A stretch of 38,259 nucleotides of DNA, from the NCBI RefSeq assembly GCF_020103755.1, contig NZ_JAHSQD010000001.1, positions 1-38,259 on the forward strand, given 5' to 3'. This DNA is from Streptomyces sp. LS1784 (GTDB lineage Bacteria; Actinomycetota; Actinomycetes; Streptomycetales; Streptomycetaceae). Positions 15,095 to 20,054 of this stretch are shown here, piece after piece. The translations under genes were made by a program, and so were the position numbers. How positions within the stretch are numbered: the stretch's first letter is position 1; every line of letters starts with the position of its first letter. Under the pieces are notes generated by a model, which saw nothing but the letters and a program-made list of their open reading frames with translations, did no database searches and was not told the origin of the DNA.

Positions 15095-15622
15095 ATGGCC
15101 ATGAATGCGAGCTCCTCTCCGCCGGCCCGGCGGTCGCGTACGGTGTGTCTGGCCGCTGTCGCCGTTGCCGGAGCACTCGGACTGCTCAGCGCGTGCGGCG
15201 GATCGTCACAGCCCGGACCCACCAGCGCGCTGACTCCCGGACCCGGGCAGGGCCTGGCGGGATTTCCCGGTGCCTCCGGAACGGGCGGTACGGTCTCTGT
15301 CAGCGCACCACCAGGCACCTCCCCGACCTCACCTGCCGGCGGCCAGCCCTCCGCTCCAGCGGCCGCCAACGCGGTGACGATCAAGAACTTTGCGTTCTCC
15401 CCGCCCACACTGACGGTCAAGGCGGGCACGACGGTGACCTGGACCAACACCGACCCCGACGCTCACACCGTCACCAGCAAGCAAGGATCGGGCGGGCCAC
15501 TGCAGTCGGCCGCCCTGGCCACCAACGACACGTACAGCTACACGTTCACCCAACCCGGCACCTACCCCTACTACTGCACCATCCACCCGTTCATGACCGC
15601 CACCGTGGAGGTGACCCCATGA
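15095..15622 (+). CDS. Cupredoxin (type I copper) lipoprotein
   Basis: A 175-residue exported electron carrier. The start is the ATG at 15095 behind AGAAGGA; an upstream in-frame ATG at 14963 would run through the tandem repeats and spoil the signal peptide. Lipobox LSAC puts the lipidated Cys at residue 34. A low-complexity Gly/Pro/Ser tether runs to about residue 92, then a plastocyanin/azurin-like domain with copper ligands His124 (DAHTVT), Cys161, His164 and Met167 (YYCTIHPFM). All four ligands are present, so it should bind copper and carry single electrons outside the membrane. Its stop overlaps the next gene's ATG by four bases (ATGA). Confidence 0.92.
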   Translation: MAMNASSSPPARRSRTVCLAAVAVAGALGLLSACGGSSQPGPTSALTPGPGQGLAGFPGASGTGGTVSVSAPPGTSPTSPAGGQPSAPAAANAVTIKNFAFSPPTLTVKAGTTVTWTNTDPDAHTVTSKQGSGGPLQSAALATNDTYSYTFTQPGTYPYYCTIHPFMTATVEVTP

Positions 15623-16572
15623 CCGAGGACACACACGACTCCGACGGCGGTGGCGGGCACGGCATGACCCGCCGGCAGCTCATGCGGCACGCCGCCTGGT
15701 TCGGTGGTGCCGTGGTCCTGACAGTCACCGCAGGAGAGGTGATCAGCCACATCCCCGGATCGACGAACACGGCCCCGGCCAGCAGCGCGGACCTGCATTT
15801 CGTACAGATCTCCGACAGCCACATCGGCTTCCAGGGCCCGGCCAACATGGACGTCACCGGGACGTTCGCCGCAGCGATCGACCAGGTCAACTCCCTCGGG
15901 TTCCGACCCGACTTCGTCATGCACAGCGGCGACCTCACGCACCTCTCCACCCCCGCCCAGTTCGACCAGGTCAAGCAGATGCTGTCGCAACTGGACACCG
16001 ACCGGGTCTTCACCGTGCCGGGCGAGCACGACTCGATCGGAGACAACGGACCACGCGCCTACCAGCAGACCTTCGGCCACAACACCATCGGCGACGGCTG
16101 GTACAGCTTCGACACCCACGGGGTGCACTTCATCGCGCTGGTCAACACGCTGCACCTGGAACAACTCGGCCACCTGGGCGACGACCAGATCGACTTCGTG
16201 CGCAAGGACATCGCCGGCCTGTCGTCCGACACCCCCATCGTCATCTTCAGTCACATCCCGTTGTTCGCGATGTATCCGACGTGGGGCTGGGGCACCGACG
16301 ACGCGGTACAGCTGCTGTCGATGTTCCGCCGCTTCTCCTCGGTCACATGCCTCAACGGCCACGTCCACCAACTGTTCAGCAAGACCGAGGGCAACATCAC
16401 CTTCCACTCGGCCCGCCCCACCTGCTACCCGTTCCCCCAACCCGGCCAGGGCCCCGCCCCACTTCCCCAGGTGCTGCCCGCCGGACGCCTCAAGGACGCG
16501 CTCGGCATCCGCACCGTCAACTACTGGCAGGGCAAGCACGAACTGGCCGTCAAGGACGAAACGCTCGCATGA
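15619..16572 (+). CDS. Tat-exported metallophosphoesterase
   Basis: A 317-residue calcineurin-type phosphoesterase. A twin-arginine signal, TRRQLMRHAAWFGGAVVLTV (residues 17-36), implies folding with metal inside the cell before export. Metal-site motifs in order: DSH (66-68), HSGD (102-105), GEHD (135-138), SHIP (211-214) and GHVH (247-250). The third motif is normally GNHD; the Asn, which normally bridges metal and phosphate, is Glu here. I have an impression that other bacterial members share GEHD, unverified. It overlaps both neighbours by four bases, so the three genes act together. Substrate is unknown; coupling to a cupredoxin suggests a redox or metal-linked envelope task. Confidence 0.9.
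   Translation: MTEDTHDSDGGGGHGMTRRQLMRHAAWFGGAVVLTVTAGEVISHIPGSTNTAPASSADLHFVQISDSHIGFQGPANMDVTGTFAAAIDQVNSLGFRPDFVMHSGDLTHLSTPAQFDQVKQMLSQLDTDRVFTVPGEHDSIGDNGPRAYQQTFGHNTIGDGWYSFDTHGVHFIALVNTLHLEQLGHLGDDQIDFVRKDIAGLSSDTPIVIFSHIPLFAMYPTWGWGTDDAVQLLSMFRRFSSVTCLNGHVHQLFSKTEGNITFHSARPTCYPFPQPGQGPAPLPQVLPAGRLKDALGIRTVNYWQGKHELAVKDETLA
16429..16500 (+). repeat. Source segment of the captured linker (within the phosphoesterase gene)
   Basis: These 72 bases align without gaps to 17014-17085 with 59 matches (82%). They encode the phosphoesterase C-terminal region here and the interdomain linker, in another frame, in the second copy. Confidence 0.8.
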
Positions 16573-18098
16573 ACACCCGGAGCCTGCCCGCCCTCGCGCT
16601 GCGCCTGGCGCTCGCCGCCACACTCGCGGCCAGCGGATACATCCACGCCCAGCTCTACATCGACGGATACCGCTCCGTCCACGTCATCGGCTCGATGTTC
16701 CTGCTGCAGGCCAGCACCGCCTTCGCCGTGGCCGCACTCCTCCTGCTGGCAGCACCCCTGCTCCTGCGCATCGCCGCCGCCGCCATCGCCATCGGCACGC
16801 TCATCGGGTTCGCCGCATCCCGCACCACCGGACTGTTCGGGTTCTCCGAAAACGGCCTGCAACCCGCCCCACAGGCCCTGCTCAGCCTCATCGCCGAGAC
16901 ACTCACCCTGCTGATCCTCGCGATCTGGCAGGCATCCGAGGCCCGGCGACCCCGCCGGGCCCGGCCAACTGACGGTCCCGACGGGCACGAAGGCGACCCG
17001 GGCCGACAGCCATCCGTTTCCCAAACCCGGCCAGGGCCCCGGCCCCAATCCGCAGGTGCTGCCCCTCCGGCCCCTCAAGCACGCGTGGCTGCCCGGCCGG
17101 TCATCGACGGCGCGGACGCCGAGAACGCCCGGCGCCTGCCCGCCCTCGCGCTGCGCCTGGCGCTCGCCGCCACGCTCGCGGCCAGCGGATACATCCACGC
17201 CCAGCTCTACATCGACGGATACCGCCTCGTCCACGTCATCGGCTCGATGTTCCTGCTGCAGGCCAGCACCGCCTTCGCCGTGGCCGCACTCCTCCTGCTG
17301 GCAGCACCCCTGCTCCTGCGCATCGCCGCCGCCGCCATCGCCATCGGCACGCTCATCGGGTTCGCCGCATCCCGCACCACCGGATTGTTCGGGTTCTCCG
17401 AAAACGGCCTGCAACCCGCCCCACAGGCCCTGCTCAGCCTCATCGCCGAGACACTTACCCTGCTGATCCTCGTGGCCTGGAAGCCCTTGCTGACGGCGGC
17501 GGTGAAATCGAGAGCGGCGGCGGTCGACCACGTGGCGGGCCTCACTCCCCTCGCCGGCCACCGACGGCTCCATAACGTCCTGTGGCTTCTCCTGCCGGTA
17601 GCGGTGGTGGCCGGCCTGCTCTGGTACGGCCGGGTACACACCCCCAACTACGAGACCAGCCTCTTCGGAAATCGCGGCGATGACGCACAACTGCTGAAAG
17701 CCCAACTGGGATCGGCGCTCCTGGGCCTGGCGCTGATCCAACTGGTCCTCGCGCTGTGGATCTACGGCCGCCTGCCCGCACTGCAAACCGCACCGCACCG
17801 GGTCCGTACCACGCACCGCCTCATCGGCCTGACCGCCTTCCTCCTCTCCCTGCCCATCGCCCGGCACTGCATCACCGCCTACGGCGTCCAGTTCACCGAC
17901 ACCCGTGTGGCGCTGCACTCGCTCACCGGGTGCTTCCTCTACGGGGCCTTTGTCGCCAAGGTCATCGTGGTCCGGCACCGCCGGTGGCCCGGCTGGGCAC
18001 TCCCCCTGGCCGGCGGCACCCTCGTCACCGCGATCGCCCTGATCTGGTACGCCGCCCCCCTCTGGTACCTGAACGGCCTCCAGGCACCCGGCCTGTGA
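16569..18098 (+). CDS. Membrane protein with duplicated TM module and DUF6529/cytochrome b561-like C-terminus
   Basis: A 509-residue integral membrane protein starting in an ATGA overlap with the phosphoesterase. A module of about 113 residues with four hydrophobic stretches (SGYIHAQLYIDGYR to LLSLIAETLTLLIL) occurs twice, at about residues 5-117 and 189-301, nearly identical. A hydrophilic linker of about 70 residues joins them. The C-terminal 180 residues form a second domain with four or five helices and conserved-looking histidines (THRLIGL, IARHCITAYG, VALHSLTG), reminiscent of cytochrome b561 or the DUF6529 family, so haem binding and electron transfer are plausible. Together with the lipoprotein cupredoxin it could form an electron-transfer chain. 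The linker derives from the 3' end of the phosphoesterase gene read in another frame. Confidence 0.85.
   Translation: MNTRSLPALALRLALAATLAASGYIHAQLYIDGYRSVHVIGSMFLLQASTAFAVAALLLLAAPLLLRIAAAAIAIGTLIGFAASRTTGLFGFSENGLQPAPQALLSLIAETLTLLILAIWQASEARRPRRARPTDGPDGHEGDPGRQPSVSQTRPGPRPQSAGAAPPAPQARVAARPVIDGADAENARRLPALALRLALAATLAASGYIHAQLYIDGYRLVHVIGSMFLLQASTAFAVAALLLLAAPLLLRIAAAAIAIGTLIGFAASRTTGLFGFSENGLQPAPQALLSLIAETLTLLILVAWKPLLTAAVKSRAAAVDHVAGLTPLAGHRRLHNVLWLLLPVAVVAGLLWYGRVHTPNYETSLFGNRGDDAQLLKAQLGSALLGLALIQLVLALWIYGRLPALQTAPHRVRTTHRLIGLTAFLLSLPIARHCITAYGVQFTDTRVALHSLTGCFLYGAFVAKVIVVRHRRWPGWALPLAGGTLVTAIALIWYAAPLWYLNGLQAPGL
16582..16920 (+). repeat. Intragenic tandem duplication, copy 1
   Basis: This 339-base block recurs at 17134-17472 (offset 552) with only about five differences by eye, about 98.5% identity. 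Two of the changes turn Ser to Leu in DGYR(S/L)VHV; the others are silent. Confidence 0.95.
17014..17085 (+). repeat. Diverged second copy of the phosphoesterase 3' end, now coding linker
   Basis: Counterpart of 16429-16500 at offset 585. The 33-base difference from the main duplication offset means 11 codons were lost between this piece and the TM module. The encoded linker RPGPRPQSAGAAP parallels the out-of-frame reading of the phosphoesterase DNA, RPGPRPTSPGAAR. Confidence 0.8.
17134..17472 (+). repeat. Intragenic tandem duplication, copy 2
   Basis: Second copy of the 339-base TM module; it leads directly into the b561-like domain and is therefore probably in the ancestral position relative to that domain. 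Confidence 0.95.
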
Positions 18099-18317: not shown

Positions 18318-18827
18318 TCAGCTGCCGCAGGCGCAGCCCGCGGCAGCCTTCGCCGCAACGGGGGTCCGGGTGAGGTCGATGCTCTGCTCCTCCGGGGTGC
18401 AGCAGGCGGTGGTGCCGCAGCAGGCGTCCGGCGCGCCGTCGGCGCTCTTGCCGAGGGTGTCGGCATCGGCCTTGACCGCGTAGACCTCCCAGGGCTCCTT
18501 GCCCGGGCCGGTGACCCATGTCTTGTCCTGGAGCGCGTAGCAGCAGGAGGTGTCGTTCTCCTCGAAGGTGGCCAGGCCCGCCTCCTGCAGCCGGGCAGTG
18601 GCGGCGGTGACCTGCTCGGTGGTCTCGACCTCGATGCCGAGGTGGTCGAGGCGGGTGTCCTCGCCGGCCTCGCCCTCGATGAGGACGAGCTTGAGCGGGG
18701 GCTCGGCGATGGCGAAGTTCGCGTAGCCGGGGCGGCGCTTGGCCGGCTCGGTGCCGAACAGCCTGGAGTAAAAGGCGATGGAGCCTTCGAGGTCGGCGAC
18801 ACGCAGGGCGAGCTGTACACGGGACAT
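18318..18827 (-). CDS. cadI: ArsI/CadI-type heavy-metal resistance protein (glyoxalase/VOC fold)
   Basis: A 169-residue VOC-superfamily protein of the ArsI/CadI group. ArsI members break the carbon-arsenic bond of organoarsenicals with Fe(II) and oxygen; CadI is the cadmium/arsenic-induced actinobacterial relative. Visible are VQLALRVADLEGSIAFYSRL, PGYANFAIAEPPLKLVLIE, DHLGIEV (His62), the vicinal thiols TSCCYALQDK (Cys95-96) and EPWEVY (Glu114). A Cys-rich tail has CC at 136-137 and 142-143 plus CAC near the end. The first Fe ligand of ArsI (His5) is Gln5 here, so lyase activity is uncertain and metal binding by the thiols may be the main role. The chosen ATG has GGGGAGA upstream. It diverges from arsR. 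Confidence 0.88.
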   Translation of the reverse strand: MSRVQLALRVADLEGSIAFYSRLFGTEPAKRRPGYANFAIAEPPLKLVLIEGEAGEDTRLDHLGIEVETTEQVTAATARLQEAGLATFEENDTSCCYALQDKTWVTGPGKEPWEVYAVKADADTLGKSADGAPDACCGTTACCTPEEQSIDLTRTPVAAKAAAGCACGS

Positions 18828-18887
18828 GGCGGTCTCCCCGATCCTTGGTCTTGTTTCGATGGATGTCGATACAGTGAGCTTGCCTCT

Positions 18888-18906
18888 TTGAATAGACAAC
18901 TGTCAA
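18888..18906. promoter_or_regulatory. Candidate ArsR operator between cadI and arsR
   Basis: TTGA (18888-18891) and TCAA (18903-18906) form outer arms around inner arms GACA (18895-18898) and TGTC (18901-18904), in an AT-richer stretch of the 88-base divergent gap. TGTCAA on the minus strand reads TTGACA, a good -35 towards cadI, but I could not find a well-placed -10. ArsR-family proteins bind such imperfect palindromes and release on metal(loid) binding. Confidence 0.4.
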
Positions 18907-18915
18907 CATAGATGT

Positions 18916-19308
18916 ATGTCGAATTCGGAACTCATGGTGCTCGGGCAGGACGACGCGGTGGCGTGCTGCTCGCCGATGGTCCGCGAGCCGCTCGGGGAAG
19001 AGGCCGCCGCCAGGCTGGCGAAGATGTTCAAGGCCCTGGCCGACCCGGTGCGGCTGCGGCTGCTGTCGCTGATCGCCTCGCACGAGGGCGGCGAGGCCTG
19101 CGTCTGTGACCTCACCGGCCCGTTCGACGTCTCCCAGCCGACCATCTCCCACCACTTGAAGGTGCTGCGCGAGGCCGGCCTGGTCGGCTCCGAGCGCCGC
19201 GGCACCTGGGTCTACTACTGGGTGCTGCCCGCCGCCCTGGCCAAGCTCTCCGCCCTGCTGCAGGCCCCGGCCGGCACCGCCGTCCAGGCTGCGGGGGGCG
19301 CGAGATGA
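18916..19308 (+). CDS. arsR: ArsR-family metalloregulator
   Basis: A 130-residue winged-helix repressor. LFKALADP-type helix (AKMFKALADPVRLRLLSLIA), then EACVCDL with Cys62 and Cys64 in the metal-binding alpha-3 helix, then the recognition helix SQPTISHHLKVLREAGLV and the wing RRGTWVYYWV. The CVC pair is the classic arsenite/antimonite site; an extra CC at 17-18 near the N-terminus could supply a third ligand. The first bases upstream hold no ribosome site, so the mRNA may be leaderless or the start could be slightly different. It overlaps the aquaporin gene by four bases (ATGA) and should repress itself, the operon and cadI. Confidence 0.93.
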   Translation: MSNSELMVLGQDDAVACCSPMVREPLGEEAAARLAKMFKALADPVRLRLLSLIASHEGGEACVCDLTGPFDVSQPTISHHLKVLREAGLVGSERRGTWVYYWVLPAALAKLSALLQAPAGTAVQAAGGAR

Positions 19309-20054
19309 CCGCGCTGGCCCCGCTGGGCCGCCGCACGGCGGTCGAGTTCGTCGGGACCGGCGCGCTGGTGGCCGTCGTGGCCGGCTCCGGCATCCAGGCC
19401 ACCAAGCTCTCCCCGGACGTCGGCGTGCAGCTGCTCGCCGACTCCCTGGCCACCGTGTTCGGCCTCGGGGTGCTGATCACGCTCCTCGGCCCGGTCTCCG
19501 GCGCGCACTTCAACCCCGTGGTCACCCTGGCCGCCTGGTGGACCGGCCGCCGCGGCGGCGAGGGCCCCGGCCTGCGCGAGGTCGCCGCCTACGTGCCCGC
19601 GCAGATCCTCGGGGCGATCGGCGGCGCGGTGCTGGCCGACGCGATGTTCGCCGAGCCGCTGGTGCGCTGGTCCACCCACGACCGTTCGGCCCCGCACCTG
19701 TGGCTGGGCGAGGTCGTCGCCACCGCCGGGCTGGTCCTGCTGATCTTCGGCCTGGCCCGCACCGGCCGCGCGCACTTCGCCCCGGTCGCGGTCGCCTCCT
19801 ACATCGGCGCCGCGTACTGGTTCACCTCCAGCACCAGCTTCGCCAACCCCGCCGTCACGATCGGCCGCACCTTCACGGACACCTTCGCCGGAATCGCACC
19901 CGCCTCCGTCGGCCCGTTCGTCGCCGCCCAGCTCGTCGGCCTGGCCGTCGGGCTCGCCCTCGTCGCCGTGCTGTTCGGCCGCCCCGCCGCGCCCGCCGCC
20001 AAGGACGTTGCGGTCCCGCGGGGCGAACACCACCCGGCCGCCGCCGGCCGCTGA
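19305..20054 (+). CDS. Aquaporin/MIP channel of the arsenic operon (AqpS-like)
   Basis: A 249-residue major intrinsic protein with six membrane helices and two half-helix pore motifs. The first is NPV (residues 70-72, in GAHFNPVVTL) in place of NPA; the second is NPA (181-183, in FANPAVTIGR). In some bacteria an aquaglyceroporin replaces the arsenite pump ArsB: arsenate is reduced by ArsC and the arsenite leaves down its gradient through the channel. The order ArsR-channel-ArsC here, with no arsB or acr3 in view, supports that scheme. Start in the ATGA overlap with arsR. Confidence 0.88.
   Translation: MTALAPLGRRTAVEFVGTGALVAVVAGSGIQATKLSPDVGVQLLADSLATVFGLGVLITLLGPVSGAHFNPVVTLAAWWTGRRGGEGPGLREVAAYVPAQILGAIGGAVLADAMFAEPLVRWSTHDRSAPHLWLGEVVATAGLVLLIFGLARTGRAHFAPVAVASYIGAAYWFTSSTSFANPAVTIGRTFTDTFAGIAPASVGPFVAAQLVGLAVGLALVAVLFGRPAAPAAKDVAVPRGEHHPAAAGR

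Follow-up and report, generated by a model that had tools for sequence, protein, structure and literature searches.

An ORF for a protein of 509 amino acids in Streptomyces sp. LS1784 contains the same TM module twice, ahead of a DUF6529 domain. Judging by the sequence, the linker between the two copies most likely represents the remains of a second, stand-alone-type operon, which would have come to lie in tandem with the resident one, probably by a crossover, before it was deleted to scraps and the TM cores were homogenised. The doubling had been noticed in an initial annotation of the window, i.e., the whole stretch of 38,259 nucleotides that was analysed. The finding is real and richer than it was described there, and probably not the fresh, simple duplication of its first appearance.

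Layout of the operon and its relatives

The 509-amino acid ORF comes third in what looks like an operon, following a cupredoxin gene and a metallophosphoesterase (PPE) gene, the latter of which shares an ATGA overlap with each neighbour (Table 1). The GC content of the window is 71%. Genes for an ArsI/CadI-type enzyme, an ArsR-type regulator and an aquaporin-like channel (window 18318-20054) adjoin the operon as a group of arsenic/metal genes.

Table 1. Positions of the operon genes and of the parts of the 509-amino acid ORF in the window
Feature	Position	Strand	Evidence or remark
Cupredoxin gene, first in the operon	15101..15622	+	Pfam Copper-bind (PF00127), 45.6 bits (cut-off 21.2); parent type of the cupredoxin scrap in the linker
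Metallophosphoesterase (PPE) gene	15619..16572	+	Pfam Metallophos, 41.2 bits (cut-off 21.5)
Part of the local PPE 3'-end matching the linker scrap	16429..16500	+	Repeat alignment
509-amino acid ORF (TM copy 1, linker, TM copy 2, DUF6529)	16569..18098	+	Single frame without internal stop
TM core copy 1, four predicted helices	16582..16920	+	5/339 differences to copy 2; AlphaFold2 model of the module
C-terminus of TM copy 1, stand-alone type in look, own frame	16921..16966	+	38/46 to L012, 37/46 to L014, 35-36/46 to L005, L101 and L102
Cupredoxin-gene scrap, other frame	16960..17008	+	42/50 with one gap to L101, L102 and L016; resembles the gene two genes upstream
PPE-gene scrap, other frame	17014..17084	+	65/71 to L005, 58/71 to the local PPE
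48 bases before TM copy 2	17086..17133	+	GAG in place of the TM gene's ATG
TM core copy 2, without a start codon of its own	17134..17472	+	Repeat alignment
Joint of the fused type between TM copy 2 and DUF6529	17473..17579	+	Protein like that of the fused-type loci L077 and L007
DUF6529 domain, five predicted helices (low-confidence model, pLDDT 57)	17580..18086	+	Pfam PF20139, 205.9 bits (gathering cut-off 23.3), residues 338-505

Three values of the initial annotation were reproduced, namely a TM module doubled at about 98.5% identity, an attached PPE piece at about 82% and a loss of 33 bases between the copies. The TM cores differ by five of 339 bases, and 13 mismatches were counted in the 72 bases of the PPE piece (16429-16500 versus 17014-17085; 81.9%). 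The two copies are offset by 585 bases in the PPE piece and by 552 bases in the TM core, and therefore 33 bases are missing. With E values of 2.7e-175 (TM repeat) and 1.1e-15 (PPE piece), neither match can reasonably be attributed to chance. The identity is uneven across the unit, being 334/339 in the TM core, 59/72 in the PPE piece and 23/46 at the TM ends; the contrast of 5/339 to 13/72 has a Fisher P of 2e-7. Even identity over the whole unit, as expected of a simple recent tandem duplication, was found in the locus L016 but not in the window. We consider it highly improbable that the assembly joined two operon copies or collapsed a repeat. The genome is a draft of 1294 contigs with 4.07% contamination, but the 339-base repeat, with unique diverged sequence between its copies, lies inside a 79-kb contig, the frame is open, and double modules exist in two other genomes.

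Relatives were collected by a protein scan of GTDB contigs, which gave 20 loci, and by a plasmid search, which gave six records. Two of the latter were examined, one with the operon (L005) and one without it. A motif search in 394 family genomes, including the 70 genomes of the window's genus, disclosed the module in 21 genomes, nine of them in the genus; all 12 from outside the genus were included. DUF6529 occurs in 35 of the 70 genus genomes and the operon, by these searches, in 10. Orthologues with a single module were sought and found in six of these ten genomes (L007, L009, L010, L011, L077 and L079), where the module is fused to DUF6529. Two modules are present in the window, L016 and L008, and none in L015. 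In the latter (L015:5974-6537), DUF6529 directly follows PPE and only the first TM residues are left (MSTRSLRAVHRSLSGVLW). L009 (Saccharothrix sp. ST-888) was placed in the window's genus as G013, and its deposited genus name is probably wrong.

Operons with TM joined to DUF6529 are referred to as the fused type. In the stand-alone type (L012, L014, L005, L101 and L102), TM is a separate gene, which in the first three loci precedes a separate DUF6529 gene, while L101 and L102 have no DUF6529 in the roughly 1.8 kb examined downstream. Other loci of the Streptomyces family and of Catenulispora showed the order cupredoxin-PPE-TM, without DUF6529 in the stretch examined. L006 and L013, which have DUF6529 without the operon, and L112 were left out. 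The stand-alone-type operon L005 resides on a linear plasmid of 674 kb (NZ_CP107961.1), a possible vehicle of exchange. On the contigs of L012 and L014, we also found a second, diverged cupredoxin-TM pair (L091:9363-10321 and L092:9133-10091), in which no PPE was detected and whose TM lies some 6.6 kb away from the TM of the main operon.

Composition of the linker

The linker consists of 66 residues, 12 of which are Pro, 12 Ala and 11 Arg. It contains the residues named in the initial annotation (RPGPRPQSAGAAP) as well as PGPRPQSAGAAPPAPQAR. Downstream of TM core copy 1, we found a TM C-terminus of the stand-alone type, a cupredoxin scrap and a PPE scrap, followed by TM copy 2. By sequence similarity, these parts follow one another as TM end, cupredoxin, PPE and TM would in two tandem operons. 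The capture of PPE DNA was thus recognized correctly in the initial annotation, but not the extent of the captured unit, since the cupredoxin scrap precedes the PPE scrap.

The 46 bases following TM core copy 1 match those of eight other fused-type operons with TM at 24-28 positions, and those following copy 2 at 23. The two tails are of different types. The DNA behind copy 2 matched every type poorly in its first 46 bases (best 30/46).

The cupredoxin scrap gave a score of 56, compared with 40 for the best of 3501 control segments. The controls comprised 1000 dinucleotide shuffles (maximum 39), 1380 natural segments of the window (40) and 1121 segments of the flanks (40), the natural ones overlapping each other. 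The fused-type L016 ties with the stand-alone-type L101 and L102, and the scrap gives no type call. At the joint, the TM end and the scrap have the sequence CCCGGCC in common, which is what a deletion between short matches would leave.

The PPE scrap matches L005 best. The other stand-alone types match it at 64 of 71 bases (L101 and L012) or 63 (L014 and L102), the fused types at 62 (L010), 60 (L011 and L016) or 56 (the sister locus L077). Its core agrees with L005 and L101 at 48 of 49 bases versus 42 of 49 for the local PPE. At the eight sites that split L005 from the local PPE, the scrap has the L005 base seven times and the local base once, although at one of the eight it is the local PPE that deviates from the rest. 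Thirteen random changes would give seven of eight L005 bases with a P of about 4e-9 (uniform model, best of 14 references). The same test yielded P values of 1e-7 to 2e-6 for the other four stand-alone types, of about 1e-4 for the fused-type L010 and L011, and of 0.008 to 0.36 for the seven remaining fused-type or TM-less operons. Over all 92 bases of the PPE tail, the scrap matches L005 at 75 and the local PPE at 71. When plasmids were searched with the linker, one record was retrieved, with the PPE part in NZ_CP107961 at 91.5%.

In front of TM copy 2, the 48 bases 17086-17133 are probably the eroded PPE end and the TM start. A genus-wide DNA search revealed no convincing source for them. G001 matched 46 query bases at 84% and was rejected, as the match lies in a long open stretch that shows no connection with the operon. 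About three dozen further short matches outside the operon were likewise not used as a source.

The initial annotation had explained the doubling by a recent tandem duplication of the local PPE tail and TM, with, as one of two suggestions, a linker that relaxes fast. In this form, the explanation is improbable. Duplication, PPE capture and the new frame were borne out, and the two TM copies of the window are sisters in the TM tree (100/98; 36 rows, without L025, of which only 198 bases are available, and without two duplicate copies). The AU test on the 92-base tail did not reject a clade of both window tails either (p 0.139; 0.177 with L077 added), while the tail tree itself placed the scrap beside L012 (84/32; 33 rows, L018, L091 and L092 left out). 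A recent duplication is disfavoured, however: the PPE scrap has seven of eight diagnostic bases of L005. Furthermore, the cupredoxin scrap and the stand-alone TM end are left unexplained by this model, and the divergence of the tail is far above the synonymous divergence of the TM core.

Simple tandem doublings have nevertheless happened. In Kitasatospora sp. GP82 (L016) and in MAA19 (L008), the same TM module is doubled in frame in the same fused gene, and the second copy brings along a PPE piece as in the window, there 24 bases of the PPE 3'-end in the TM frame. Unlike the window, both are plain tandem duplications of one continuous unit and contain no cupredoxin piece. The unit of L016 (6116-7123) has 504 bases with two mismatches (99.6%), and by its sequence this doubling is very young; the unit of L008 has 477 bases and 94.6% identity. 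Both units start 24 bases before the PPE stop, and their ends are 27 bases apart. In the TM tree, the L008 copies are nearest to the single-module L079 (95/92) and not to L016. The two doublings are likely separate events, one shared doubling with later loss being a possible alternative. Both genomes keep an RBS-like AAGGAC and the ATG before copy 2, whereas the window has GAG. The RBS-like sequence and the ATG of copy 2 are lost in the window, and its second module therefore depends on translation of the linker, unless a weak internal start is used (e.g., GTG at 17085).

Flanks, TM cores and the origin of the doubling

The genes flanking the doubled module were compared with those of the relatives. 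Relative to L077, dS was 0.104 for cupredoxin, 0.137 for PPE and 0.140 for DUF6529; in cupredoxin, L016 (0.095) and L010 (0.099) are as near to the window as L077. The window and L077 are paired in the PPE tree (93/88; 31 rows, without the partial L018, L025 and the duplicate loci L091/L092) and in the DUF tree (96/96; 13 rows, duplicates left out). The fused and stand-alone groups of the PPE tree are weak clades (80/73 and 84/74), and the fused-type L011 falls outside both. By these comparisons, the flanks look like the fused type, sister to L077, and the middle looks like another type.

The TM cores of the window are separated by a dS of 0.031 only, while TM copy 1 differs from L077 by 0.164 and from the five stand-alone types by 0.21-0.29. 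The edges of the core are sharp (matches per 30-base window of 4, 27 and 29 on the left and of 30, 25 and 8 on the right). Hence the copies are closer to each other than to their orthologues and end abruptly, as known from concerted evolution. A gene conversion of the TM module, considered already in the initial annotation, is corroborated by these data at least with regard to homogenisation, and we assume that gene conversion, or an exchange of a similar kind, made the cores alike at a later time. The other suggestion of the initial annotation, fast relaxation of the linker, fared badly, as relaxation can hardly account on its own for 18% divergence when the core differs by about 3% at synonymous sites. 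A linker under neutral decay would not be expected to diverge about six times as far as synonymous sites in the core. This leaves homogenisation of the core or a linker that was divergent to begin with, and the sequence evidence points to both. Throughout their length, the two cores are of the fused type in look, an outcome to be expected from a crossover inside TM only if homogenisation followed.

We propose that the resident operon was of the fused type and that the incoming DNA contained a stand-alone-type operon. A single crossover within the TM gene would have created tandem operons with resident flanks and a middle of the stand-alone type, so that a second cupredoxin-PPE-TM operon once lay between TM copy 1 and the fusion of TM copy 2 with DUF6529. 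Deletions would then have removed most of the inner cupredoxin and PPE genes, leaving about 50 and 70 bases, respectively. The frame of these leftovers happened to be open, which would have yielded one protein with the order TM-linker-TM-DUF6529, and a later homogenisation of the TM cores would make the doubling look younger than the linker. Points against this proposal are the shortness of the scraps and the result that, with one exact motif, no intact double operon was found in the 394 family genomes.

It is also conceivable, but unlikely, that the doubling is old and arose within the lineage. A stand-alone-type ancestor would then have doubled its whole operon, and the window would have kept both TM modules; the scraps would preserve ancestral bases, the TM cores would evolve in concert, and recombination between the two TM modules would have deleted the middle in the single-module fused relatives. 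In agreement with this, many stand-alone-type bases of the PPE scrap are also the bases of outgroup Streptomyces, and the haplotype is partly present in the fused-type L010 (four of six diagnostic bases) and L011 (five of ten). The stand-alone-type haplotype, in part ancestral, may therefore have been retained rather than imported. The six single-module operons and the one without a module also demonstrate that module number changes. On the other hand, an old duplication would require that the other fused-type relatives, among them the sister L077, lost the scraps in parallel, and 48 of 49 core bases shared with L005 and L101 is a high value for DNA long without selection, although the six differences in 71 bases are not decisive. 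We thus prefer the collapse of a tandem operon acquired by crossover. The complete scenario, in which a foreign stand-alone-type operon recombined with the resident fused one, the double operon collapsed and its scraps became a linker, while module number changes repeatedly between 0, 1 and 2 and domain gain by operon collapse perhaps recurs, is put forward tentatively, at somewhat under even chances.

Reading frame, predicted protein and known systems

The initial annotation had pointed out that no stop occurs in the linker frame. The frame is indeed open across 16569-18098, but this is no special event, since nearly all relatives are open as well. Upstream of the TM ATG, the TM frame is free of stops over 318 codons in the window and over 90-348 codons in 25 of 26 other loci, the exception being L100 with nine (L021 and L094 lie on the same contig, and L005 was measured from the start of the match). 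An open frame is ordinary in GC-rich DNA, and the new reading needed no special luck. PPE DNA is read in a new frame, as had been annotated (phase 1 in the linker, 0 in PPE), and the same holds for the cupredoxin DNA (0 and 2, respectively). The linker is thus predicted to be new coding sequence made from DNA with other, older frames.

AlphaFold2 modelled the single TM module with good confidence as four helices, a bundle of a widespread kind (pLDDT 86.2, pTM 0.81), while the model of the full 509-amino acid protein was poor (pLDDT 57.4, pTM 0.34). As each module has four helices, i.e., an even number, an extra copy need not invert DUF6529 in the membrane. According to the positive-inside rule, the Pro/Ala/Arg-rich linker would be a disordered cytoplasmic tether. 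Foldseek with the single-module model gave no hit at an E value of 0.001 or better (best 0.48). A second structural comparison retrieved mixed four-helix bundles, the best being 3dby (Z 12.0), and copper storage proteins with Z of about 10-11, values too low for a helical bundle to deduce a function from the fold. By sequence, no solved relative was found at E 0.1; Pfam gave only one weak match in 29 members of the module, and NCBIfam no match to the 509-amino acid protein. A literature search by name disclosed no mention of DUF6529, which in Pfam is a family of unknown function. Read by eye, the cupredoxin has a lipobox-like and the phosphoesterase a Tat-like start. Judged by its gene content, the operon may encode a copper or redox system of the cell surface.

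The data indicate that a domain repeat can come from the collapse of a duplicated operon and not from a neat internal duplication. Leftovers of other genes are usable as a linker because more than one frame is often open in GC-rich DNA. The data also call for caution, as near-identical repeats may look young although the intervening sequence tells a different story. With its three doubled forms and one lost module, a single genus offers a small natural series. The proposed mechanism combines known processes, and it is their combination, together with the repeated change of module number, that is of interest. Judged by titles and the start of abstracts, the literature retrieved on overprinting, gene conversion and Streptomyces contained no like case.

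Two known systems may be compared with the window. An example of bacterial overprinting is nog1 in citC of E. coli, where, as in the window, a gene's DNA has a second frame that is open (PMC4683798). While nog1 is a separate gene over a living one (PMC4683798), dead gene pieces extend an existing protein in the window, whose upstream part still has the parent genes in intact form. For M. tuberculosis, gene conversion has been reported between repeats within a genome (PMC12046097). In the window, two copies remained or became similar, but these are parts of one reading frame, and diverged DNA separates them.
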